Source of the DNA: Streptococcus uberis
Lineage (GTDB): Bacteria > Bacillota > Bacilli > Lactobacillales > Streptococcaceae
DNA length: 64,000 bases
Reading direction: 5' to 3'
Assembly: GCF_900475595.1 (NCBI RefSeq)
Contig: NZ_LS483397.1
Coordinates: forward strand, 1,707,001 to 1,771,000
Shown: one piece after another, positions 3,732-14,892 of the stretch
How the letters are laid out: each line of letters starts with the position of its first letter
Position numbering within the stretch: the stretch's first letter is position 1
Notes under the pieces: model-generated
Databases searched by the model: none
Seen by the model: the letters and a program-made list of their open reading frames with translations, nothing else
Told to the model about the DNA's origin: nothing
Position numbers and translations under genes: made by a program

Positions 3732-4892
3732 TTATTTAACAAATTTTAATATCCCAATACTTACAAATAAAAGGAAAATTCCTAGATACATAAATGTGAT
3801 TGAAAAACTTAAAGAATCAATAATGATACCTATTAAAGGAAAAATAAAAATCATTATAAAGCTTCCAATCATAGCGTTAACACTTAACATCGTTGCCCTG
3901 ATATGAGTTTCAAACTCTTGCTGGATGTCATTATTGTATATAGGTATAAACATAGCCACAAGTCCATCACTAACTATGAAGATGACAACATACATAGCAG
4001 GATGAGCATACATAGCTAAAATAAATAAGAACGCTGAAATGGGGATTATCATCTTAAAGACTTGTCTTGCTGACAATCTTTCACCTATCTTACTGGCAAT
4101 CCAAACACCAAATATATTGATACAACAAGAGATTAACATCGTTAAACTAATTTGCCAAGATTGTAGTTGAGTCATTTCATTTTGATAATAGAAATAAAAC
4201 ATTGAAGTAAAAGTAACTAGTGTTTGGCTGATTACCATCCACTTTATTAATCTCGGATTGGTTTTAAATGTCATTAATACCGATTTATAGATATCTCTAA
4301 AAGTTGTACTAACTTCATTTTGTTTTTTAACTTTCGGCTCTTTCATAAACGAAATAACCAATATTGCTAATAGAGATAAACCTATCTGAATCATGTAGGT
4401 AATATCCAAAAGTCCGTGAACAAAGAAACCTGCTAAAACCATTCCTAAAGCTCTAGTTGCTTCGGAAATACCTGAAATAAAACTAGTATACTTTAAATAC
4501 TTTTCCTCAAGTCCAGCTTCTTTCGAAGACTCGAACAGCATTGCACTACTTGTTCCCGAATCAAAATTATATGACCAGGCACCAATAATCATTCCTAAAG
4601 CATATATCCAAAAATTGCCATTCCCCATTAGCATTAGAAAAGCTGAGCAGATGGTTGAAAAACGGCTAAGATACAAATTAGTCTTATAGGTAAAACGATC
4701 TGCCAACATTCCTGAAGGAACCTCGGAAATTAGACTCGTTCCATGAAATAAACTTTCAAGGAGACCAATTTGAAAGAGACTCATCCCATTTTGACTTAAA
4801 AATAAAAGCCAAAAAGAGGTAATACCAAAAAAACTAAATAATTCACATGCTCCAAGCAGAGTAATATTACTTTTATACGATTGTTTAAACAT
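3732..4892 (-). CDS. MFS transporter
   Basis: A 386-residue integral membrane protein with about twelve hydrophobic segments. Between the second and third is the MFS loop signature GMLADRFTYK, and a central cytoplasmic loop (KEPKVKKQNE) separates the halves. It resembles small drug or metabolite efflux MFS proteins, but the substrate cannot be read from sequence. Bases 4235-4616 (residues about 93-219) are duplicated with some differences at 6821-7202. It is monocistronic, with a terminator directly downstream. Confidence 0.8.
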   Translation of the reverse strand: MFKQSYKSNITLLGACELFSFFGITSFWLLFLSQNGMSLFQIGLLESLFHGTSLISEVPSGMLADRFTYKTNLYLSRFSTICSAFLMLMGNGNFWIYALGMIIGAWSYNFDSGTSSAMLFESSKEAGLEEKYLKYTSFISGISEATRALGMVLAGFFVHGLLDITYMIQIGLSLLAILVISFMKEPKVKKQNEVSTTFRDIYKSVLMTFKTNPRLIKWMVISQTLVTFTSMFYFYYQNEMTQLQSWQISLTMLISCCINIFGVWIASKIGERLSARQVFKMIIPISAFLFILAMYAHPAMYVVIFIVSDGLVAMFIPIYNNDIQQEFETHIRATMLSVNAMIGSFIMIFIFPLIGIIIDSLSFSITFMYLGIFLLFVSIGILKFVK

Positions 4893-5182
4893 ATATTCAC
4901 ATTCCTTTTTTTAAAATTCTAGTTATGAGTCATATCTGACTAAACAATCATTGTGCCTACATCTTTCCTCCAATTGAACAGTTAAACTATTCAAATCTCC
5001 TTCTATCAAAATTTTTGTAAATATATGTTTTTATCGTTAATAAACCTATTATAGCATAATCTTCTTTTGAAATAATTAAAGTTCTTACTACCATCTCAGA
5101 AACATCCTTTCTGATTGGTTTAGTCTTTTGAACAAACATAGACTATCCATCTACTAACTTAATTCAATATTATCTTAACCTT
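4893..5182. other. Upstream region of the MFS gene, no gene recognised
   Basis: About 290 bases of AT-rich DNA between the MFS start and a strong plus-strand promoter. I find no coding frame or clear hairpin. Confidence 0.4.
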
Positions 5183-5238
5183 ATGACACCCAACCTTTCC
5201 TATGCTATAATATTACAGTAATCACTTTTACTAAGGAG
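5183..5238 (+). promoter_or_regulatory. Strong promoter and RBS, probably the original ybaB promoter
   Basis: ATGACA (5183-5188), 17 bp, TATAAT (5206-5211), then AAGGAG at 5233-5238. The only frame it now drives is a 27-codon stub starting at 5253 whose first bases match the start of ybaB at 14596. The simplest reading is that this promoter drove ybaB before the element inserted. Confidence 0.6.
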
Positions 5239-5251
5239 AATGAAATCTTAG

Positions 5252-5262
5252 GATGAATATGC
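5252..5262 (+). repeat. Candidate left attachment site (attL core)
   Basis: The 11-mer GATGAATATGC is identical to 14595-14605 at the ybaB start, and both are preceded by ATCTTAG. The distance between the copies is 9343 bp, and the integrase gene ends 80 bp before the right copy, as expected for an integrated element. The core is short, so the boundary may be off by some bases. Confidence 0.5.
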
Positions 5263-5336
5263 CAGACTTGTTCCACAATTTTTTAAGTCTCGAAATTGTC
5301 AGAAAGGTTAATTTTAAGCCTTTTAAAATTTACTAA
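5253..5336 (+). other. 27-codon stub frame after the displaced promoter
   Basis: ATG at 5253 opens a frame starting M-N-M-P and closing with TAA at 5334-5336. YbaB starts M-M-N-M-Q at 14593. The stub looks like the first codons of ybaB running into element DNA. Translation is possible, but I see no reason to assign it a function. Confidence 0.4.
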
Positions 5337-5405
5337 GACCAACTAAAATCGCTTAAATTTATTATAATAAGACAAAAAATAGAAAAAGACAGTATCAAAA
5401 TGTAC

Positions 5406-5440
5406 AAAAATCGCTTTCAGATTTGAAAGACGATTTTTTA
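5406..5440 (+). terminator. Terminator closing the displaced-promoter transcript
   Basis: AAATCG-x-TTTC and GAAA-xx-CGATTT form a stem followed by a T-run on the plus strand. With the promoter at 5183-5211 it would define a transcript of about 220 nt with no large coding frame. From 5441 to 5719 I see nothing else. Confidence 0.6.
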
Positions 5441-5719
5441 TTATTAAGTTTTTTCTTTTTTAGACTTTACTAAGACTTAGTATATTATTTTATACTCCTT
5501 CGTTATTTTTTAACTATCAATAATTAATTACAAGATGAGATTCATCTAATAAATAAGCATTATCAAATTTTTATAAAGTGAGTTCTATTTTTTCATTACT
5601 CAAGACAAGTCTTCTTTCATGTAATCTTACTTTTTTCTGTTCAAAAAATTCAAATATTGTAATACTTCTCTATATAAGAATACTAAAATGAATTTATATA
5701 TGCTTAATTTCATTTAAAG

Positions 5720-6373
5720 CTATTTACTTTTTTTAACCACATTTTCAATATCATTAATAAAAAACGAAAGTAAACTTCCCTTTCCAACCGATTTAACACC
5801 TAAGTCTTTTCTCATCTCATTCATTACCTCTTCCATCAAAATAAGAAGTTCTGGATCATCCTCAGATTTAACTTCAAGTGAACTTTTCCTAAAAGCATTC
5901 CACTTTTTCACTACTTTAGGAGAGCCCCAAAGTGACAACTTACTGTTAAAACTACTTATATCCTTGATCATTTCTTCTTGGGAGTATGAAAATCCATTGC
6001 TCCCATTTTGAGTCATTTTATAAACAAGTTCAATAAACTCAGAATATGGAACTTCCCTTTTAGCAGACAGATACTCTCTACGTTTATTTCTATTATCATA
6101 ATATCTTGAAAAAATTGAAATTAATATTGATATAGAGCCTGTGATTAAAGCAACCAAAACTACAGCATCTAAACTTGAAGTCATATTTTGTAAATATTTG
6201 ATTGTATGGTTAATAAATATAGGTATATATTTAATCAAATATTTCCCCACATAATATATATCAGTTAACAAAAAAAACAAAAGCAAATAATTCAATAATT
6301 TATTATCTTTCTGTGTGTTACCAATCACATATGCAATAATAAAAGTAAAAATCAAACTAATCAAAAAATACAT
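5720..6373 (-). CDS. Membrane protein of unknown function, element cargo
   Basis: 217 residues. There are hydrophobic segments at about 2-18, 28-46 and 70-90, then a basic stretch (NRNKRREYLSAKRE) and a soluble C-terminal region of about 120 residues with KVVKKWNAFRKSS and a conserved-looking EVMNEMRKDLGVK end. Similar two- or three-helix proteins with a helical cytoplasmic tail are scattered in mobile elements and genomic islands, function unknown. GGGGA precedes the ATG. It is the first gene inside the proposed left boundary and may be cargo, possibly defensive by location only. Confidence 0.6.
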   Translation of the reverse strand: MYFLISLIFTFIIAYVIGNTQKDNKLLNYLLLFFLLTDIYYVGKYLIKYIPIFINHTIKYLQNMTSSLDAVVLVALITGSISILISIFSRYYDNRNKRREYLSAKREVPYSEFIELVYKMTQNGSNGFSYSQEEMIKDISSFNSKLSLWGSPKVVKKWNAFRKSSLEVKSEDDPELLILMEEVMNEMRKDLGVKSVGKGSLLSFFINDIENVVKKSK

Positions 6374-6492
6374 AATTCCCCTATCTAATTTTCCCGAAAA
6401 TTTATCATATTACATACATCCAAAATTCACTTAAACTATATTCTCTTATGGAGTCACTATTAAATATTTTGTAAAGTACTTTTCAAAATTCA

Positions 6493-6828
6493 TTACAAGG
6501 GTTTAATTTGATTTCCATTTTCATCAAAATTGGATTTATCCAACCATCTTTCCAATCGTTCTTTATTTTCAGTCCACTCTTTATCCAAAATTGAATACCA
6601 ATTTGTATCTCTGTTTCGACCTTTATATATTACAGCTTGTCTAAACGTTCCTTCATATGTAAACCCTAATCGCTCTGCAGAACGTCGAGAAGGTGCATTC
6701 AAACTATCACATTTCCACTCATAACGACGATATCGAAGATTTTCGAAGACGTACTTCATTACCAAATATTGTGCTTCAGTTGCCATTACTGTTCGTTTTA
6801 ATTCTGAAGAATAAAATACTCCATCCAC
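6493..6828 (-). pseudogene. C-terminal remnant of the GNAT gene (copy of 1-316)
   Basis: The frame encodes the last 111 residues of the acetyltransferase found at 1-669, from [10 protein letters not shown] to the stop, with scattered substitutions and no N-terminal half. At 6821-6823 the similarity switches from the GNAT gene to the MFS gene. The acetyl-CoA-binding region is incomplete, so activity is not expected. Confidence 0.85.
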
Positions 6829-7211
6829 TTTATTAATCTTGGATTGGTTTTAAATGTCATTAAGACCGATTTATAGATATCTCTAAAAGTTGAACTAACT
6901 TCATTTTGTTTTTTAACTTTTGGCTCTTTCATAAACGAAATAACCAATATTGCTAAAAGTGATAAGGCTATCTGAATCATGTAGGTAATGTCCAAAAGTC
7001 CATGAACAAAGAAACCTGCTATAACCATTCCTAGAGCTCTAGTTGCTTCGGAAATACCTGAAATAAAGCTAGTATACTTTAAATACTTTTCCTCAAGTCC
7101 GGCTTCTTTTGAAGACTCAAACAGCATTGCACTACTTGTTCCTGAATCAAAATTATATGACCAGGCACCAATAATCATTCCTAGGGCATATATCCAAAAA
7201 TTCCAAATCAT
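6798..7211 (-). pseudogene. Internal remnant of the MFS gene (copy of 4235-4616)
   Basis: The frame reproduces MFS residues of about 93-219 (FWIYALGMIIGAW to NPRLIKWM) and then runs into GNAT sequence at the 3' junction, ending after MEYFILQN. It has neither the N-terminal nor the C-terminal half of the transporter. Its ATG is formed by non-MFS sequence six bases after the stop of the HEPN-like gene upstream. It is joined end to end with the GNAT remnant at a CCA triplet shared by both parents. Confidence 0.85.
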
Positions 7212-7217
7212 AGTGTA

Positions 7218-7838
7218 CTAATCTTCAAGAAAAAATTTTTTTAATATTATTTCTCTTTCAGGAATTTCAACTTCTTTCCAATTAGCTTCAAATAAAAAAT
7301 TATATAACTCAACACAACCAATATATATTGACTTTATATCAATTGACTCAAGGTAATAATATACAATACCGATATTTAATCTTTCTGCTGAAAAAACCAT
7401 CTCTTTATCTAAATGTGCTAAAAGTTTATCTCGAATTAATTTTATCTCATCGATATTTTTTTGCTCTTTATCAACAGCATCTTGTATAGTTTTCAAAATT
7501 GATAAAAGAAACTTATCCTTAGAATTATGTCTCTGCTTAGAAAGTATTTTAAAAATACCATTTTTTTCTCTAATATCAAAAATTTTAGTTATTCCGAATA
7601 CTACTCTATAATACAGCGATTCATAAATTACATTTCTTGAAATATCATAACTAATAGTCGCTTTCATTGCTCTATCATGCCACTCATCTTTTACAATTTT
7701 TATTATTTCTAGTGTTACAAAAGTTGACTCAAGCTCCCTTAACATAGTGTTAAGATGAATCATTGCTTTCGAGTTTTCATCTGGTAATTCATCTGCAAAA
7801 TTCATTTTTACAAAATCTTTTAAATCATAATTTTTCAT
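7218..7838 (-). CDS. HEPN/AbiU2-like protein, candidate abortive-infection gene
   Basis: 206 residues, mostly helical, with no signal peptide or membrane segment. IRDKLLAHLDKE at about residues 135-146 contains R-x5-H, the arrangement of HEPN-domain RNases and of AbiU2-like proteins. An upstream ESLYYRVVFGITKIFD helix resembles the same group. HEPN proteins commonly cut RNA in phage-defence or toxin systems. A nucleotidyltransferase partner is not visible next door, so a solo role is likely. The AbiU2 assignment is from pattern memory only. GGACAGG upstream serves as RBS. Confidence 0.5.
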   Translation of the reverse strand: MKNYDLKDFVKMNFADELPDENSKAMIHLNTMLRELESTFVTLEIIKIVKDEWHDRAMKATISYDISRNVIYESLYYRVVFGITKIFDIREKNGIFKILSKQRHNSKDKFLLSILKTIQDAVDKEQKNIDEIKLIRDKLLAHLDKEMVFSAERLNIGIVYYYLESIDIKSIYIGCVELYNFLFEANWKEVEIPEREIILKKFFLED

Positions 7839-8159
7839 GTTGTAACCTGTCCAAAATATTTTAATTTATACTCAAAATAAAATTCAAAGTGAAATAAAAA
7901 ATGGTATGAAATTAATACTAGAACGCAGTTAGACATAAAAATAAATTTTAAGATTTAAACAGTTTCTCTATATTTTTTTGAGATCATAGCATTTGCAATT
8001 CTTTATCTTAATGAAAGCTAAATATCTCTCATCACTTAGACTACCTGTTTGCACTACAATTTTCATCTACCAAAATTTACTCACTAATTAATATTATACA
8101 TCTATCTACAATAGTATTCCCATGTAACTAAATAAACCACATTTGATTTATTTCATCTA
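7839..8159. other. 321-bp AT-rich gap
   Basis: This gap lies between the unknown 449-residue gene and the HEPN-like gene. A TATAAA at moderate distance from the latter is the only promoter-like element. I see no coding frame and no clear terminator hairpin. Confidence 0.4.
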
Positions 8160-9509
8160 TTATTTCCCAAATTTCTCCTGACTTATTAATTCATTTATTT
8201 CTTTTTCTTTAATTGCTAAGTCACTTTCAGGATGTTTTTTTATAAAATAATTTATTCTTGAATTTCCACTTATTTTCCATTGTAAATTTTGATAAATCAT
8301 AGGTCTCAAAGTTTCCCTATCACCTGTTTTTAAATAATGTAAAATTTCATTACCATATTGATATTTTTTTACGTAACCTAAGTAATTACCTTGCCAATGA
8401 GAATCTTCCTCTCTAAAACTTTGAAAACTAATTAATGAATAAAGTAATTTTTCCAATAAATCTAATATGTATGTTGCATATATCGCATCAATATCTTCAT
8501 AATCTAAATATTGATCAGTATACTTACCTAGTACTTTATCCATATTATCTTTGTTTAGAGTATTTAATAATTTATGATCCCATATTTCATTACTATATTT
8601 TTCTTTAATTTCCTCTGATTTCAAATCACCTTGATACAAATGCATCTCCTGTTGAATTGAAATAATTGACTCTAAGCTTTGATAAGTACTATTTTCCTGA
8701 ATATATTTTTCCTTGTATCCATAATAACTACTATTATTAATAAATCCATCTATTTTTTTCTTTAAAATCTCATTATAAAATTCATTTAGATAAACATCAA
8801 TAAGCGCTATTTTATTGATGTTTTTTGATCCAGTTTTTACACACTCCTCATAATATTCCCAAAATGAACCACTAACATTAAGAGCTTTTTCTGTAGCTCG
8901 AAAAATACCTGTCATAAACATTTCAAAATGCTCCTCAAAAAGTATGTTATATACTTTATGAATATCAACTACCTTTAATCTTAACTTTTCAAATTCAATA
9001 TTAAGTGGCATATAGCCTAAAACTATCCTCCATAGATTTTCTTCATAAGATTCAAAAAGAATATCTAAAATAATAACAGATGATAAAAAAGATTGTAATT
9101 CCCATTGTTCAGAGCTATCTCCAAAACAAATCTCATCATATGTTTCAAACATTATATTACGTTGTATATATTTTTTTTCTTCAATAGAATTCAACCCTAT
9201 CTTGGTTCCATGTTCATCCATTTTACAATTATTTAATACATCTTCTATTGAGTTAGGCGTATAAAGATATGGGTTCTTCGAGGTTATTTTCCCTCTTCTT
9301 ATGAGGCTAATTAATGGAGCATTATTTGAAGAGATTTCTTTATTCGTAAGCTTTTTATATTTCTTATTAATTTTTTTCTCTTGTCCAGTATACCAGTAAT
9401 ACTCCCTAGAAGCTCTTACTTTTCGTTCATCATTTAAAATTTCAATTTTTGAATCTAGTCTAATCGAAGCACAATCAATAAAATACTGCTTCGTTCTTTC
9501 AAATAACAT
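8160..9509 (-). CDS. Unrecognised 449-residue element protein
   Basis: I do not recognise the family. The protein is soluble and rich in Lys, Glu, Ile and Asn, with a basic N-terminus (ERKVRASREYYWYTG, KKINKKYKKL) and many aromatic-rich helices, and no Walker, HUH, nuclease or HTH motif that I can see. The start is placed at 9509, not at a longer TTG or GTG upstream, because AAAGGAA lies seven bases before this ATG and a TGG-TATAAT extended -10 (9567-9572) falls inside the longer reading. It neighbours a HEPN-like gene in the cargo half of the element, so a defence role is possible but unproven. Confidence 0.6.
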   Translation of the reverse strand: MLFERTKQYFIDCASIRLDSKIEILNDERKVRASREYYWYTGQEKKINKKYKKLTNKEISSNNAPLISLIRRGKITSKNPYLYTPNSIEDVLNNCKMDEHGTKIGLNSIEEKKYIQRNIMFETYDEICFGDSSEQWELQSFLSSVIILDILFESYEENLWRIVLGYMPLNIEFEKLRLKVVDIHKVYNILFEEHFEMFMTGIFRATEKALNVSGSFWEYYEECVKTGSKNINKIALIDVYLNEFYNEILKKKIDGFINNSSYYGYKEKYIQENSTYQSLESIISIQQEMHLYQGDLKSEEIKEKYSNEIWDHKLLNTLNKDNMDKVLGKYTDQYLDYEDIDAIYATYILDLLEKLLYSLISFQSFREEDSHWQGNYLGYVKKYQYGNEILHYLKTGDRETLRPMIYQNLQWKISGNSRINYFIKKHPESDLAIKEKEINELISQEKFGK

Positions 9510-9566
9510 AATATTCCTTTTATAAATGTGGTGTTTTTTTATTCTATTTTTAAAATAATTACCTAA

Positions 9567-9575
9567 ATTATACCA
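9567..9575 (-). promoter_or_regulatory. Extended -10 promoter of the 449-residue gene
   Basis: On the minus strand TGG directly precedes TATAAT (9572-9567), 57 bases upstream of the chosen start. No good -35 is visible, which is usual for extended -10 promoters. Confidence 0.5.
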
Positions 9576-9782
9576 CTTTTTTAATTTTATAATGTCATTA
9601 ACCCTAACTAGGGATAAACACATAGTCCATAGGTGCACCAAAGGACGGATTGAAACAATATGATTACTAACTGATAAGGATTTAGTTATGCATATTACCG
9701 TTTAACCGTTTCTTTGTTGTGCTTTTTTGTATCCACTCGGTAATTTTGTTTCTTTTCGTCTGAGGACTGGAAAGGACTACTT

Positions 9783-10268
9783 ATGCTAAAATCTGAACTT
9801 AGAACCCTCTATTGTGAATTGCTCGGTCAATCTATCAAACAAGAATTGATTAACCAAGAAATTCCTCAAAACGAAGTGTCTTACTACTTTAATGATGAAA
9901 TCCGATTGATTTCAGCCCCTGCTATTAGTCAAATTCTAAAAGGTAAACGCAACCTCACCTTAGATACTGCGGAAGCCCTGCAAGAAACGCTGGGTTTACC
10001 AAATGTTAAACGTGTCTTCTTTCCTAGCCATGGTTTCTGTGAGTTACTCATTATTCAACTTACCGAGCTAATGCTTACTTGTGGTTTCAACTCTACAAAG
10101 GAACTCTTTCAAATAAAAGAGCTAGATATTCAACAAAATCTTTCAATATTGGCATCTGCCCTTTACGAATTCTTCCCCGATTTTCCTGAGGAAGAAGCTT
10201 CTTACCAAATCGCTGATAGCTTAGCTGTATGGTTAATTGAATTTGTTGCACTCGTTGCACAAATTTAA
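9783..10268 (+). CDS. XRE-like HTH regulator of the element
   Basis: 161 residues. Residues 44-72 (SAPAISQILKGKRNLTLDTAEAL) fit the recognition-helix half of a Cro/C1-type HTH, followed by an all-helical C-terminal domain. It is the first gene of the plus-strand mobility module and starts opposite the cargo genes. AAAGGA sits six bases before the ATG. A 17-bp inverted repeat at 10278-10294, just after the gene and before the next, could be its operator. It probably controls excision or transfer of the element. Confidence 0.65.
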   Translation: MLKSELRTLYCELLGQSIKQELINQEIPQNEVSYYFNDEIRLISAPAISQILKGKRNLTLDTAEALQETLGLPNVKRVFFPSHGFCELLIIQLTELMLTCGFNSTKELFQIKELDIQQNLSILASALYEFFPDFPEEEASYQIADSLAVWLIEFVALVAQI

Positions 10269-10277
10269 GTCCGATAC

Positions 10278-10294
10278 TTTCAAGATTCTTGAAA
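10278..10294. repeat. 17-bp inverted repeat, candidate operator
   Basis: TTTCAAGA-T-TCTTGAAA is a perfect 8+8 palindrome between the HTH gene and the 104-residue gene, upstream of the coupling-ATPase operon. It has no T-run, so it is more like a protein-binding site than a terminator. Confidence 0.45.
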
Positions 10295-10369
10295 TCGAAG
10301 CAAGACTAAATCATCTATCATAGAGTTGTACTTAGCTAAGATACAAATAATTTAAAGAGGTAAACTACT

Positions 10370-10684
10370 ATGAAAACAAGAAATCGTCAAAGTGGCTATT
10401 CTGCCAATACTGCCAGTCAATATATTGACACGAAACATGCTATTCAATTGTTATCTGTTGAACTAGAACCACAATTAAAATTTGAAGATAACCAACCTAC
10501 AGATGAAATCATCGCTTATAAAGCATGGTTCTCACAAAAAGGACTTCCACCTTTTCAAGTTAAATTTGAATCTAAGATAAATTTACCTAACTATTTATCC
10601 CCTATCGAATTTGATCAATTAGAAGCCTGTGAAGTAGGATTTAATGTATACTTTCGCGCTAATGGTCTTAAAGAGGTTAAATAG
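10370..10684 (+). CDS. Conserved small protein preceding the coupling ATPase
   Basis: 104 residues with no signal peptide or membrane helix. Small proteins of this size directly before FtsK/TcpA-like genes are common in streptococcal mobilizable elements, but I know no function. Its TAG stop overlaps the GTG start of the next gene by one base, so the two are translationally coupled. AGAGG precedes the ATG. Confidence 0.65.
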   Translation: MKTRNRQSGYSANTASQYIDTKHAIQLLSVELEPQLKFEDNQPTDEIIAYKAWFSQKGLPPFQVKFESKINLPNYLSPIEFDQLEACEVGFNVYFRANGLKEVK

Positions 10685-11760
10685 TGACAAAAAAAGAGTT
10701 AAAGCAATATCTAATCCAAAGCCTTAATATGGGACTTGGATCTCTTATGCAAGGTGAGACTAGCTATACTAATAGCTTTGACATAACAATATTGTCTCAT
10801 GGTTTCCTATTTGTTCCACGGTTACCAGCTGGCTATATTATCGACGATGAACTTTATCAGAAAATTTTTCTAATAGCTAATGCTTCTCTCTACCCTAGGT
10901 ATACACTTCTCAAACAAAATTCAGCCTATTTTATGGCTTTGGACACAGATGATATACACATTCAACGCGGGTTGTTCTTTCCATGGAAAAAAGGAGTCTC
11001 AGAACGACTGATAATTTCAGATCTAGATGATTTCTCAAAGATACAAGAAAAAGAAGTTATTCCTATTATGAAGAATCTCACTCTAAACTTTAATAAGGTA
11101 ACCTCATTAGCTATTGCTGGAAATAGTGGCTCTGGGAAATCATATGCATTAACTTACTTCTTAAGTTTATTAAAAAATTCTTCTGAACTCATTATCGTAG
11201 ATCCTAAGTTCGATACCCCATCTCGTTGGGCTCGTGAAAATGATATTGCTGTGATTCACCCCCAAAAGAATCGCTCAAAATCGGATTTTGTTTCAGAAAT
11301 CAATGAGAATCTCAGCACTTGCCTAAACCTCATTCAGCAACGCCAAGAAATTCTTTATGATAATCCTGAACATCAGTTTGACCATTTAACTATTGTCATT
11401 GATGAAGTATTAGCTTTGAGCGAGGGTGTTAACAGAACAATAAAAGATTCTTTCTTTTCCCTCTTATCACAAATTGCACTTCTTGGTCGGGCAACTAAAG
11501 TCCATCTACTATTAGTTAGCCAGCGTTTCGACCACAATACAATTCCTGTATCAGTTCGTGAGCAGTTAAATGTATTGATTCAAATCGGAAATATCAATAA
11601 GAAGACCACACAATTTCTATTCCCTGACTTGGACCCAGAAGGTATTGTTATCCCAATAGGTAAGGGAACTGGTTTGATTCAAATTATTGATAATGAACAC
11701 CCTTATCAAGTACTTCCATTACTTTGTCCTACTTATTACACAAGGAAAGGAATAATCTAA
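10684..11760 (+). CDS. FtsK/TcpA-like DNA-translocating ATPase (coupling protein)
   Basis: 358 residues. Walker A is GNSGSGKS at 146-153 and Walker B is LTIVIDEVLAL at about 233-243, followed by LLGRATKVHLLLVSQR, the sensor-like segment of FtsK/HerA ATPases. It is shorter than chromosomal FtsK and has no membrane helices or gamma domain. This is the size and form of TcpA-type coupling proteins that bring an element's relaxosome to a conjugation pore. The start is GTG, overlapping the previous stop. It sits upstream of the rolling-circle initiator, as in mobilizable elements of this type. Confidence 0.75.
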   Translation: MTKKELKQYLIQSLNMGLGSLMQGETSYTNSFDITILSHGFLFVPRLPAGYIIDDELYQKIFLIANASLYPRYTLLKQNSAYFMALDTDDIHIQRGLFFPWKKGVSERLIISDLDDFSKIQEKEVIPIMKNLTLNFNKVTSLAIAGNSGSGKSYALTYFLSLLKNSSELIIVDPKFDTPSRWARENDIAVIHPQKNRSKSDFVSEINENLSTCLNLIQQRQEILYDNPEHQFDHLTIVIDEVLALSEGVNRTIKDSFFSLLSQIALLGRATKVHLLLVSQRFDHNTIPVSVREQLNVLIQIGNINKKTTQFLFPDLDPEGIVIPIGKGTGLIQIIDNEHPYQVLPLLCPTYYTRKGII

Positions 11761-11762
11761 AT

Positions 11763-12380
11763 ATGAAAAAAACTTTCTTTCAAAAAACATATTCTGTCAT
11801 AGAAACTTCCTTCTTCCTTGGTTTTACTAGTATGTTTTTATATATTGGAGTCTTATTATTAAAAATAAGTATAGGCTCCATTAGTATAGAACCGTTAGGT
11901 AGCCTTATCAATATTTTCTTACAATATCTAAGTATTTTTTTACACTACTTAAAATTCCTTACGTATGGAATACTTATGATTCCTATCACATTACTTTTAA
12001 CTGAGTTTATGATACGTATTAGGCAAGATAATTTCTGGAATTATTTCAAGTCCCTACATCAAACAAGACACCTAAGACAATTTCTAAAGCAGGAAGAAAA
12101 GTCAGAGTCTGTCATATCTATTGATGATCAAACAACTGTAACTAAGTTAAATCCAATATTAGAACAATTTAATCAGGCAATAGAGAAGTGTCTTGTGGAT
12201 GTCCGTAATAAATCAGTTATTATATATATCCAATACCCTAAGACACAACAATCTCAAAAGTTATTGAAAGACATGGAAGAACATATTAAAGAGGAAGTTT
12301 CAAATCAAAATCCTAACTACTATTTCTCTGCACCAAACAGGGAAGGTAATAGTCTCTGGTATATTGGAACAAGAAGGTAA
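11763..12380 (+). CDS. Small membrane protein of the mobility module
   Basis: 205 residues from the ATG at 11763; a longer frame from TTG 11724 would overlap the ATPase gene. Two strong hydrophobic segments (about 15-38 and 56-85) precede a charged cytoplasmic C-terminus of about 110 residues. Position between coupling ATPase and initiator suggests a membrane partner of the coupling protein, but I recognise no family. Confidence 0.6.
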   Translation: MKKTFFQKTYSVIETSFFLGFTSMFLYIGVLLLKISIGSISIEPLGSLINIFLQYLSIFLHYLKFLTYGILMIPITLLLTEFMIRIRQDNFWNYFKSLHQTRHLRQFLKQEEKSESVISIDDQTTVTKLNPILEQFNQAIEKCLVDVRNKSVIIYIQYPKTQQSQKLLKDMEEHIKEEVSNQNPNYYFSAPNREGNSLWYIGTRR

Positions 12381-12382
12381 GG

Positions 12383-12430
12383 AAAAGGCTGGCTAGGCTC
12401 ACGAAGTGAACGCCAATAGCACAGCCTTTT
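12383..12430 (+). repeat. Long hairpin upstream of the nick site
   Basis: AAAAGGCTG (12383-12391) pairs with CAGCCTTTT (12422-12430), and a smaller TCAC-GAAG-TGA hairpin lies in the loop. It may end transcription of the upstream genes or be part of the origin. It is not a convincing single-strand origin because the CS-6 sequence TAGCGT is absent. Confidence 0.5.
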
Positions 12431-12444
12431 CATAACTAATAATT

Positions 12445-12475
12445 TGTAATGGGACTACTACGACTTCCCATTACA
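12445..12475 (+). other. pMV158-type nick site (double-strand origin / oriT)
   Basis: A 10-bp stem (TGTAATGGGA at 12445-12454 with TCCCATTACA at 12466-12475) exposes an 11-base loop containing TACTACGAC. This is the sequence nicked by pMV158 RepB (cut after TACTACG, here between 12462 and 12463). It lies 70 bp upstream of the initiator start, as in that plasmid family. It should serve for rolling-circle replication of the excised form and perhaps as transfer origin. Confidence 0.8.
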
Positions 12476-12544
12476 TCATCAATCAACAATCATAAAATTT
12501 GTGAATTGATTTACAATCCATACAGAAAGACAAAGGTAATATTT

Positions 12545-13135
12545 TTGACTAAAGATAAACGATCCAATAAGTGGGCCTTTCTGATTTATAAGGAAAGCGT
12601 TCCTAATAATTACATAGAAATTTTAGAATCACTACATATTCCATTTATATTAAGCCCCTGGCATGATCAAGATATTAACACAAAAACAGGAGAATTTAAG
12701 AAATCTCACAAACATGGTGCATTATTCTTTGATTCTCTCAAAAGCTATTCTCAGGTGTCTGAATTACTAACCGAAAAATTAAATTCACCGGCTCATGTAG
12801 AGGTGGTTATGTCTCCCAAGGGAATGTATGATTACTTTGTTCATGCAGAGAATCCAGAAAAAACTCAATATAACATCGAGGATATTGAATCAGGTTGTGG
12901 CTTTAATCTTGAGGAATTTCTTATTAATAACAATAATGATATGTTTTTATCAAATGTCATAGACATAATCGAAGATTATAACTTTATAGAATTTAGTAGA
13001 TTAGTTCAATATGCTAGACAAGAAGATCGTATTTTACTTAAATTCATCATCGATAAAACATATTTTTTTGCAAAATACCTTGATTCAAGACGTCATGGTA
13101 AAGGAGGCCATACTAATGATAAAATTAGTAAATAA
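12545..13135 (+). CDS. Rolling-circle initiator / relaxase, Rep_2 (RepB of pMV158) family
   Basis: 196 residues from TTG 12545, which has AAAGG eight bases upstream. The resulting N-terminus (MTKDKRSNKWAFLIYKESVP) aligns with RepB of pMV158. A longer reading from ATG 12449 is rejected because it would cross the nick-site hairpin. The HUH motif is HKHGALFF (metal-binding His pair), LSPWHDQD matches the SPLHDKD motif, and MYDYFVHAE holds the probable catalytic tyrosine, matching MYLYLTHES of RepB. The enzyme should nick the adjacent TACTACG site. The extra C-terminus is helical and lacks the helicase domain found in some relatives. Confidence 0.8.
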   Translation: MTKDKRSNKWAFLIYKESVPNNYIEILESLHIPFILSPWHDQDINTKTGEFKKSHKHGALFFDSLKSYSQVSELLTEKLNSPAHVEVVMSPKGMYDYFVHAENPEKTQYNIEDIESGCGFNLEEFLINNNNDMFLSNVIDIIEDYNFIEFSRLVQYARQEDRILLKFIIDKTYFFAKYLDSRRHGKGGHTNDKISK

Positions 13136-13367
13136 AACCGATATAATGAAACTTACTGGACTCACTGAAAGCCAGACAAAAAAACTAATTAGAAACGCTA
13201 AACAAAGATTAACCTCTCAAGGATTTGATTGGTATTCAAACAAAAAAATTGGTAAAGTCCCACTGAAAACAATTGAGGAACTTCTTGGAATTGAGTTATC
13301 AAGTGAAAATGATATAATAAATATCGTACAGAAAGATACTGTCTTAAAAAGAGAGGAGTCTCAATGA
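13116..13367 (+). CDS. DUF3173-type small protein, probable excisionase
   Basis: 83 residues from ATG 13116, chosen because AAGGAGG ends eight bases before it; upstream in-frame starts lie inside the initiator gene. The start IKLVNKTDIMKLTGLTESQTKKLIRNAK and the VPLKTIEELLGI segment are typical of DUF3173 proteins that sit directly upstream of tyrosine integrases and resemble winged-HTH excisionases. It overlaps the integrase start by four bases (ATGA). Confidence 0.7.
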   Translation: MIKLVNKTDIMKLTGLTESQTKKLIRNAKQRLTSQGFDWYSNKKIGKVPLKTIEELLGIELSSENDIINIVQKDTVLKREESQ

Positions 13368-14515
13368 CAGTAACTAGACAAAAAAATAAAAAATGGAAGG
13401 TGGATATAAGTGATGGTTATGACCCTGTAACTGGGGAACAGAGACGTCATAGAAAATCTGATTTTAAGTCAAGGCGAGATGCTGAGCAATATGAAGCTGA
13501 CTATCGTCTAAATAAACTTCATCAAGTATCCTATAAAGATAAAATATCAATTCACTATCTTTATAGTTTAGTAAAATATGAAGATGAAATTCGTGGAAAC
13601 AAACGAGGAACGATAGACACTCAAGAGTCCTATTTTAGACAATATGTTTCAACTTATTTTGCTAAAGCTGATATGAGTAAAGTTACTATATTTGATATAA
13701 AAGATTATAGGGATTGGTTACGTTCCCAACCTAGTTTAAAAGGCGGAACACTTTCAAATAGTCATATCAATCAACAAATGATTTTTATACATAAACTATT
13801 TGAAGTCGCTATTAGCAATCAATTAAGGCAAGATAATCCCTGCTCTGGTATACGTCGACTACCTGAAAGACATAAGGAAATGAGCTTTTATACACCTGAA
13901 CAATTTAAACTATTTGATAGTTTGTTCAATGAGGATGAGTATTCATTTCAATTATTATATAGAGTTCTTATGTATACAGGCATAAGGATGGGGGAAGCTC
14001 TTGCATTAACTTGGAATAATGTCAATCTTGTTGAAAAGTATATTGATATTAAATATTCGGCTTACTTTAGAAATAATGAGTTACATATTGGTTCAGTAAA
14101 AACTACTCAGTCAAATAGAAGGATTTATATCCATGATTCTTTTGTGACAGAATTAGAAGAGTGGAAAAATGTCCAAGCAAATTTACTTGGGAATTTCACA
14201 ACAGATTTAGAGAGCTTACAAATTTTTCAAAATACACCTCAAGTGTTAACTACACCAAATGTTTCAAACTTCAGAACGATTTTGAAAAAAAGATTACCTC
14301 CAAATTTAAAATTAATTCGTAATCACGATTTTAGACATTCTCACGCAGCATTCTTAGTTTCAGAGGGACTTCGAAATGGTGAGGGAAAGGACTATATCTT
14401 CTTTACTTTAATGAAAAGACTGGGACACTCATCAATTAACACAACAATAAATGTATACTCACATTTATTTCCTACACAACAAAAAGAGATTGCATCTGCT
14501 TTTGATAATTTTTAA
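13364..14515 (+). CDS. int: Tyrosine recombinase (integrase) of the element
   Basis: 383 residues. An N-terminal AP2-like arm-binding part (KKWKVDISDGYDPVTGEQRRHRK) and a SAM-like core-binding domain precede the catalytic domain. The catalytic residues are Arg in YTGIRMGEAL (about 209), HxxR in HDFRHSH (about 325), His in LGHSSINTT (about 355) and Tyr in NVYSHLF (about 365). All are present, so the enzyme looks active. It ends 80 bp before the proposed right attachment site in ybaB, the normal position for an element integrase. Confidence 0.9.
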   Translation: MTVTRQKNKKWKVDISDGYDPVTGEQRRHRKSDFKSRRDAEQYEADYRLNKLHQVSYKDKISIHYLYSLVKYEDEIRGNKRGTIDTQESYFRQYVSTYFAKADMSKVTIFDIKDYRDWLRSQPSLKGGTLSNSHINQQMIFIHKLFEVAISNQLRQDNPCSGIRRLPERHKEMSFYTPEQFKLFDSLFNEDEYSFQLLYRVLMYTGIRMGEALALTWNNVNLVEKYIDIKYSAYFRNNELHIGSVKTTQSNRRIYIHDSFVTELEEWKNVQANLLGNFTTDLESLQIFQNTPQVLTTPNVSNFRTILKKRLPPNLKLIRNHDFRHSHAAFLVSEGLRNGEGKDYIFFTLMKRLGHSSINTTINVYSHLFPTQQKEIASAFDNF

Positions 14516-14592
14516 CAATAAGGCAGTGTAAGGCAATTATAAAAAAACAACAGGGTCTAAACCCTTGATACGAAAGGAATCTTAGATATCTT

Positions 14593-14892
14593 ATGATGAA
14601 TATGCAAAACATGATGAAGCAGGCACAAAAGCTTCAGAAACAAATGGAACAAAAGCAGGCTGATTTGGCGGCAATGACTTTTGTTGGAAAATCTGCTCAA
14701 GATTTAGTGACTGCTACCTTTACTGGTGATAAAAAAATGGTTTCCATTGATTTTAAAGAAGCTGTTGTCGATCCTGATGATATGGAAACTTTATCAGACA
14801 TGACAACTCAAGCTATTAATGATGCCTTGGCTCAAATTGATGAGGCAACTAAAAAAACAATGGGAGCATTTGCCGGGAAATTACCTTTCTAA
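14593..14892 (+). CDS. ybaB: YbaB/EbfC nucleoid-associated protein
   Basis: 99 residues with the family's usual length and form: helical N-terminus ([20 protein letters not shown]), a central sheet with [23 protein letters not shown], and a C-terminal helix. It binds DNA as a dimer; homologs often follow dnaX-recR, but here it stands alone. The coding sequence appears intact. Its first codons overlap the proposed attachment site, so transcription now depends on sequence carried by the element. Confidence 0.9.
14595..14605 (+). repeat. Candidate right attachment site (attR core)
   Basis: GATGAATATGC, identical to 5252-5262, at codons 1-5 of ybaB. The new upstream region (14516-14592) offers AAAGGAA at 14572 and a weak TATAAA near 14538 as replacement expression signals. 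Confidence 0.5.

Follow-up and report, generated by a model that had tools for sequence, protein, structure and literature searches.

Integration at the start codon of ebfC in Streptococcus uberis exchanges the gene's upstream region for an element-borne leader that may outlive the element

What becomes of a conserved nucleoid-protein gene when a mobile element integrates exactly at its start codon? The question is raised by a 64,000-nucleotide stretch of a single-contig 1.98-Mb Streptococcus genome (S. uberis, contig NZ_LS483397.1, positions 1707001-1771000; hereafter the window, whose numbering is used unless stated otherwise), in which an element of the integrative and mobilizable element (IME) type occupies 5263-14592, immediately ahead of ebfC (ybaB). 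The element is bounded by two plus-strand copies of ATCTTANGATGAATATGC, the only ones in the window (100 dinucleotide shuffles contained none): the attL core (5245-5262) and the attR core (14588-14605), which overlaps the ebfC start codon. An original prediction, made from the letters of this stretch, had described a mobilizable element separating ybaB from its promoter. It had placed GATGAATATGC correctly at 5252-5262 and 14595-14605, and its statement that ATCTTAG precedes both copies applies to the left one but not to the right, which follows ATCTTAT (14588-14594), the nearest ATCTTAG starting 9 bp further left. The central claim was borne out insofar as a mobilizable-type element does sit at the ebfC start with a host-type promoter on its far side, but mere promoter loss is not what we found, as the right end brings its own conserved leader of a hairpin and a Shine-Dalgarno (SD) site. 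We consider it reasonably probable that such elements exchange the ebfC leader, that transcription from the integrase promoter (P_int) reads through int into ebfC, and that the leader is kept after the element decays.

The two junctions define what has been exchanged. On the left, the promoter scan placed the promoter of the original prediction, a strong one, at 5183-5211 (plus strand; ATGACA-17-TATAAT, TG-extended). With 11/12 consensus bases plus the TG it scores highest among the 53 promoter-like sites between 4900 and 15000, a total that is not above that of shuffles (57.3, sd 7.5). Counterparts stand directly 5' of ebfC in S. agalactiae ATCC 13813 (95% over 65 bp) and in L181 (84% over 106 bp; loci are cited here by L numbers), and the window copy is of this host type. 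It now drives only a 27-codon stub at attL (5253-5336, plus strand), the sole open reading frame (ORF) behind it, as had been foreseen. On the right, ebfC (14593-14892, plus strand) is intact, a 99-aa TIGR00103 frame with an unchanged N-terminus, and has no clear promoter, the two promoter-like sites touching 14516-14592 scoring just 9/12. The tyrosine integrase (13364-14515, plus strand; 383 aa; Pfam Phage_integrase 9.3e-13) is uninterrupted and stops 79 bp before the right GATGAATATGC.

Empty and occupied sites were compared in relatives of other species than that of the window; among the 80 named loci retrieved, the nearest downstream flank was that of S. pseudoporcinus (75.5%). The empty site that had been predicted was seen in these relatives. 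Over 614 bp, the attL flank of the occupied S. mitis SK642 (L070) is 98.2% identical to the sequence preceding ebfC in the empty Streptococcus sp. M334 (L112); the two ebfC genes match at 97.0% over 299 bp, and these two matches overlap by 17 bp at the start codon. A second case is provided by S. parasanguinis P430801 (L113, occupied), whose attL flank, in the 89 bp that end at the core, is 97-98% identical to the direct ebfC upstream regions of L164 and L155 (both empty), with 94-97% for ebfC. From these pairs, we conclude that integration swaps all sequence ahead of the start codon and leaves the protein as it was. When the site is occupied, the sequence directly upstream of ebfC, including the SD site, is derived from the element.

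In the window, this element-supplied leader contains the hairpin AGGGT-CTAA-ACCCT (14552-14566, plus strand), identified by folding and an arm-pairing test, followed by the SD-like GAAAGGA (14572-14578, plus strand), identified by leader comparison. We surveyed 148 ebfC loci from 146 of the 147 genus genomes searched (149 matches, two of one genome lying in one stretch). Integrase loci were defined as those with a relative of this integrase of at least 130 aa and >60% identity that ends 73-81 bp 5' of ebfC. There were 18 of these among 22 loci with an integrase-like match, as L005, L019, L020, and L222 were not counted (≤66 aa, or 25% identity). A leader position matrix built from the 18, scored leave-one-out with a threshold of 18, was exceeded in 50/148 loci, namely the 18 integrase loci and 32 without a near-full integrase, and at 55 of the 847,801 positions of the same loci, a figure that includes these leaders. 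Small indels hide a leader from the ungapped matrix, as in L013, L026, L122, L128, and a group of 14 loci, so that the 98 loci scored as being without the leader include such cases. An exact pattern, TTGATACGAAAGGAATCT-N10-ATGATGAAYATGC, was present at 52 places in 47/284 genomes, with 0 for the reversed control among the matches listed. Integrase places were taken at E 1e-60, where identities split into those of at least 65% and a rest of ≤41%, and the exact leader followed the integrase match by 45-53 bp in 23 of the 28 places with at least 271 aa and at least 65% identity (the C-terminal fragments G084 and G019 being excluded). The exact pattern CCYTTGATACGAAAGGAATC had 0 matches in IMG/VR, and two S. 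agalactiae prophage records match the leader at 79%.

The pairing of the hairpin is conserved along with its position. In an arm-swap test of 40 distinct hairpins, mean stability was -5.64 versus -4.83 (sd 0.15) for permuted arms, and 0/200 permutations reached the observed value; by group, this was 0/200 for the integrase loci (16 hairpins) and 1/200 for the leader-bearing loci without a near-full integrase (27). The mean folding z of the segment -54..-21 was -2.7 (16 distinct sequences) and -2.1 (28) in the same two groups, versus -0.3 in the others (84). A promoter within the leader itself (TTGATA-16-TATCTT, 14565-14592) was considered and rejected: by eye, its second hexamer is not conserved, and in -110..-20 the integrase loci score at chance.

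Several related sequences were observed elsewhere. A leader-plus-core right end without ebfC behind it is present in a 188-kb S. salivarius plasmid (NZ_CP018188; L240:4001-4067). The 22 nt ACAGGGTCTAAACCCTTGATAC, spanning the leader hairpin and TTGATAC, also occur upstream of rep in the pneumococcal plasmid pSMB1 (L241:312-333, E 0.2), possibly as a shared origin-like signal or by coincidence. Fourteen loci (L184, L186-L188, L196-L198, L202, L210, L224-L226, L228, L229) have a close promoter, a similar hairpin, and GAAAGGAA before ebfC; no integrase match was found upstream in any of these, and the group is perhaps an old domesticated leader.

Where, then, could transcription of an occupied ebfC begin? 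The nearest predicted promoter is P_int (13291-13318, plus strand; TTGAGT-16-TATAAT with TG, by promoter scan). Upstream of the integrase, TGnTATAAT was found in 15/15 integrase loci scored, a set without L135 and L136 (132-aa integrase ends), and in the 12 loci listed it lies 53-57 bp 5' of the start of the 383-aa integrase. Between integrase and ebfC, these 15 loci have no TATAAT-like site except for one TACAAT, and a scan of the window, the one sequence scanned for this, found no forward terminator between int and ebfC. By a home-made promoter score (threshold at least 14), from which L007 was left out for an in-frame stop, promoter-like sites in -110..-20 were present in 42/98 leader-less loci (shuffles 4/980), 0/17 integrase loci, and 1/32 of the loci with a leader and no near-full integrase. 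For -300..-20, the respective counts were 47/98 (shuffles 10/980), 0/17 (1/170), and 24/32 (5/320), and a separate scoring showed the same pattern.

These last 32 loci are of particular concern, as the original prediction had named an empty-site strain with the sequence of 14516-14592, rather than that of 5183-5251, upstream of ebfC as the state that would contradict it. Such loci literally exist, being 32 of the 148, and we read them as remnants of elements. In 26 of the 32, the likeness to integrase loci does not stop at the leader but takes in arm-repeat or integrase-tail sequence, and ebfC is intact in the remnants. P_int is matched across the -35 to -10 in four (L009, 1.6e-22; L028, 2.2e-14; L016, 1.7e-9; L020, 5.9e-9), in which it is fused upstream of the leader. 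The junctions to the integrase tail or leader differ among the four, and thus they look like separate deletions. Weaker P_int matches were found in L190 (3.7e-5) and L201 (0.002).

From the anatomy, the empty and occupied pairs, the conservation of leader and P_int, the hairpin pairing, and the fused remnants, all of which are observed, we infer read-through transcription with a possible effect on the ebfC expression level and the nucleoid. In the mechanism we propose, recombination at the start codon would exchange the ebfC upstream region and leave the protein unchanged. To the left, the host-type promoter would be left driving a short stub into a terminator-like hairpin, while to the right ebfC would gain the hairpin-GAAAGGA leader of the element and become the last gene of a P_int-int transcript. 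Transcription starting at P_int would then run across int into ebfC, the hairpin and SD site in use being those of the element. After decay, the 5' region of ebfC would still consist of the leader, joined in some lineages by P_int.

A number of observations weigh against this proposal. The likeness is confined to the leader in 6/32 remnants (L115, L117, L123, L129, L142, L199), and the remnant reading is weaker for these six because of it; furthermore, the remnants were selected on the leader and so give no evidence that it persists longer than the rest of an element. As for P_int, 27/32 remnants have no match at E <1e-4, and 9 of 11 further remnants inspected have another extended -10. Matches at E ≤0.1, mostly 15-31 nt around the -10, also occur in 27/98 leader-less loci, the best of these controls (L121, which has a degenerate leader) tying with L190 at 3.7e-5. 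Expression of ebfC from P_int is a prediction made from sequence. Regarding the leader, the permutation tests ignore the relatedness of the sequences, the whole leader of the window folds no better than shuffles (z -0.48; -1.52 for the hairpin alone), and the 14 nt from GAAAGGA to the first ATG is a long spacing. On the minus strand, the leader hairpin is one of the terminator-like sites of the window, and it could serve recombination or reverse-strand termination instead. We would put forward only tentatively, and with more doubt than confidence, the wider proposition that elements have repeatedly replaced the ebfC promoter and leader across Streptococcus, that distant integrase lineages converge on a hairpin-SD cassette, that ebfC belongs to the integrase transcript while an element is resident, that P_int and leader become permanent after decay, and that past elements thereby set nucleoid-protein dosage.

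Insertion at the ebfC start is real, but this target was already known. Integrative and conjugative elements (ICEs) and IMEs of streptococci have been published as integrating into the 5' end of ebfC (Ambroset 2016, PMC4701971; Coluzzi 2017, PMC5357655), and in the available portions of other papers this target also appears for S. salivarius, for S. suis (in a figure legend), and for IMEs in general; IME_SdyRE378_ebfC is named in PMC5704250, and GBSInt8 prophages of group B Streptococcus (GBS) in ebfC are described in PMC7487436. The text consulted of PMC4701971 notes promoter replacement at ebfC for one ICE and proposes an excision switch like that of SpyCI, which, as cited there, is reported to switch mutL off in S. 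pyogenes. Applied here, following what was proposed for SpyCI and the S. parasanguinis FW213 ICE, integration would silence ebfC, excision in fast growth would restore the host promoter, and the leader would have no role in expression. SpyCI/mutL does resemble the present case in that insertion at the 5' end parts a gene from its promoter; here too the host-type promoter is cut off from ebfC, and promoter-like sites between int and ebfC do not exceed chance. Whereas SpyCI is reported to silence mutL, the ebfC leader suggests substitution rather than silencing, as an SD-like site and a paired hairpin are conserved before ebfC in integrase loci and remnants alike, and the remnants combine an intact ebfC with, in 24/32, a promoter-like site upstream. 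We therefore regard an excision switch as unlikely. Element-supplied expression signals are known from insertions at the 5' ends of other genes, namely IMEVchUSA3 at dusA, demonstrated by lacZ fusions, and, as cited in the same text, SXT at prfC (PMC8409611). Unlike in the present, sequence-based case, in which the EbfC protein is unchanged and the nearest predicted promoter, P_int, is one gene away, these two elements replace the N-terminus as well.

The right end might alternatively be purely a recombination signal, comprising integrase, excisionase, or Rep sites or an origin-like nick site, with its position before ebfC being passive. Paired arm-like repeats do adjoin the leader (AAGGCA-N4-AAGGCA, 14520-14535, plus strand, picked by eye, their role being presumed), and repeat pairs, partly of other sequence, were likewise seen by eye in other loci; ACAGGGTCTAAACCCTTGATAC upstream of rep in pSMB1 (at E 0.2) points the same way, CTTG/ATA being a rolling-circle nick site. 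Yet TTGATA is not constant even among integrase loci, where TTGGTA, TTGAAA, and TTTATA also occur, and the leader is kept in loci without a full integrase. Moreover, the GBS prophage PP758857, one of the two records that match the leader at 79%, has an integrase of only 32% identity over 170 aa but repeats the architecture with a hairpin of different sequence, which is followed at the prophage end by GATATGAAAGGAA and the same core. GBSInt8 prophages share the core and the leader architecture at the integrase end, although, unlike the window IME, they are full prophages with a distant integrase. On balance, a purely recombinational right end seems decidedly unlikely. It is more improbable still that the hairpin leader is the ancestral streptococcal ebfC leader, copied by elements, and that the integrase-less loci were never occupied. 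Such an origin would suit the 14 GAAAGGAA loci with their close promoter and similar hairpin, L008 with its close promoter and GATACGAAAGGAAT, and the six integrase-less loci sharing the leader alone. It sits poorly with the patchy distribution of the leader, with near-identical empty and occupied strains that differ in the leader exactly at the core, and with the arm-region or integrase-tail sequence also shared by 26/32.

The left flank proved to be less simple than supposed: the promoter at 5183 lies not at the outermost chromosomal flank but in a tandem array of two copies, of which it is the inner one. A second promoter-plus-core unit lies at genome positions 1703649-1703728 (core 1703711; 89% identity over 80 bp), with its core 8.5 kb left of the inner copy and 427 bp past a citrate lyase ligase gene, such that the array measures 17.9 kb from the outer core to ebfC. 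Outer and inner units match at 86% over 352 bp, including ~145 bp left of the core and ~190 bp into the left end of the element. In a fully empty site, ebfC would therefore adjoin a promoter from outside the window. In L008, 327 bp separate the end of the citrate lyase ligase gene from ebfC downstream of it, with no gene between them by ORF scan. The island between the two units encodes an OLD-like ATPase, a PhzF-like protein, a GNAT acetyltransferase, a GrpB-GNAT protein, an MFS protein, and family-less ORFs, and a search with the integrase as query found no relative of it there. The OLD-like ATPase (L003:14057-15775; PADLOC Old E 9.3e-24; OLD-like TOPRIM) is a defence candidate. A segment of the MFS gene is duplicated at 95% between the outer island (window 4235-4534) and the inner element (6821-7120). 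Islands without a visible integrase ORF were also seen in S. pseudoporcinus (L039:5777-9986) and S. didelphis (L035:~6700-9986), in addition to the one ending at window 5100-5262. Their right ends, beside ebfC or the next att site, carry a GBS-type promoter, with CTATGCTATAAT...AAGGAG in the window and L039, and such islands may be cis-mobilizable and bring their own ebfC promoter.

Just inside the left end of the window element, folding identified a terminator-like hairpin with a T run (5406-5441, plus strand; -12.5 kcal/mol; z -4.9 for 5400-5445), which would stop transcription from the orphaned host-type promoter. For left ends in general, stretches were picked and terminator-likeness was judged by eye: such hairpins were found in the window, at its own att1 (-22.2 with flanks), and in L039, L058, L061, and L113, other hairpins in L063 and L070 were not judged, and direct folding found none in L035. 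We rejected the idea that the stub encodes a functional peptide, as it reads just MMNMQDP in L058 and L063; because its length and sequence vary between elements, it is probably not functional.

The remaining genes divide by strand, with cargo all on the minus strand and the helix-turn-helix (HTH), ATPase, Rep, DUF3173, and integrase genes all on the plus strand. The cargo comprises a 217-aa ORF without a Pfam or PADLOC match (5720-6373), to which the start of a 217-aa ORF in the S. didelphis island is similar; partial GNAT acetyltransferase and MFS genes like those of the neighbouring island by protein comparison (6493-7211); a HEPN/AbiU2-like protein (7218-7838; PF18734 E 3.5e-6, no PADLOC match); and an ORF of 449 aa from its ATG with no family assigned by Pfam or PADLOC (8160-9509). 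The plus-strand module consists of an HTH protein that may be the element's regulator (9783-10268; HTH_3 slightly below cutoff), a P-loop ATPase that is probably a TcpA-type coupling protein (10684-11760; AAA_22 above cutoff, FtsK_SpoIIIE and DUF87/HerA slightly below theirs), a relaxase/Rep of the rolling-circle replication type (12449-13135; Rep_OBD PF01719 E 2.3e-44 plus RepB_C), and a Pfam DUF3173 protein (13116-13367) that by its position is probably an excisionase, followed by the integrase. No type IV secretion system (T4SS) family appeared among 10 element proteins in a general Pfam scan, no dedicated T4SS search having been made. All 18 integrase relatives in the sample adjoin ebfC; the integrase protein matches 1264 phage records, every one at <60% identity, and 9600-14610 had no near match among phages. 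By its gene content, the element is probably one of the ebfC-targeting IMEs that combine TcpA, a Rep-type relaxase, an excisionase, and a tyrosine integrase: it has a tyrosine integrase at a specific target, a Rel_PF01719 relaxase, and flanking direct repeats, as IMEs are delimited in the available text of Coluzzi 2017, and its gene order of coupling ATPase, relaxase, DUF3173, and integrase is the expected one, although its TcpA-type profile matches are below cutoff. Judged from their descriptions rather than their sequences, the ebfC elements of PMC4701971 and PMC5357655 resemble it in target gene and end, in having a tyrosine integrase, and in IME classes that its gene set fits (Rel_PF01719, TcpA, relaxase-excisionase-integrase), and differ from it, as described, in that it lies in a tandem array.

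The kind of element is thus already known, and this analysis adds the conserved leader, the P_int route, and the remnants; we found no report of these three in the literature listings and passages searched. From a remark in the literature that ebfC insertions ought to influence expression of the gene, the model develops a specific and testable proposal. It also points to a way in which a dead mobile element could rewire a conserved gene, the integrase promoter and the leader being what it leaves. Were this so, close relatives would differ in ebfC expression for causes beyond host regulation.

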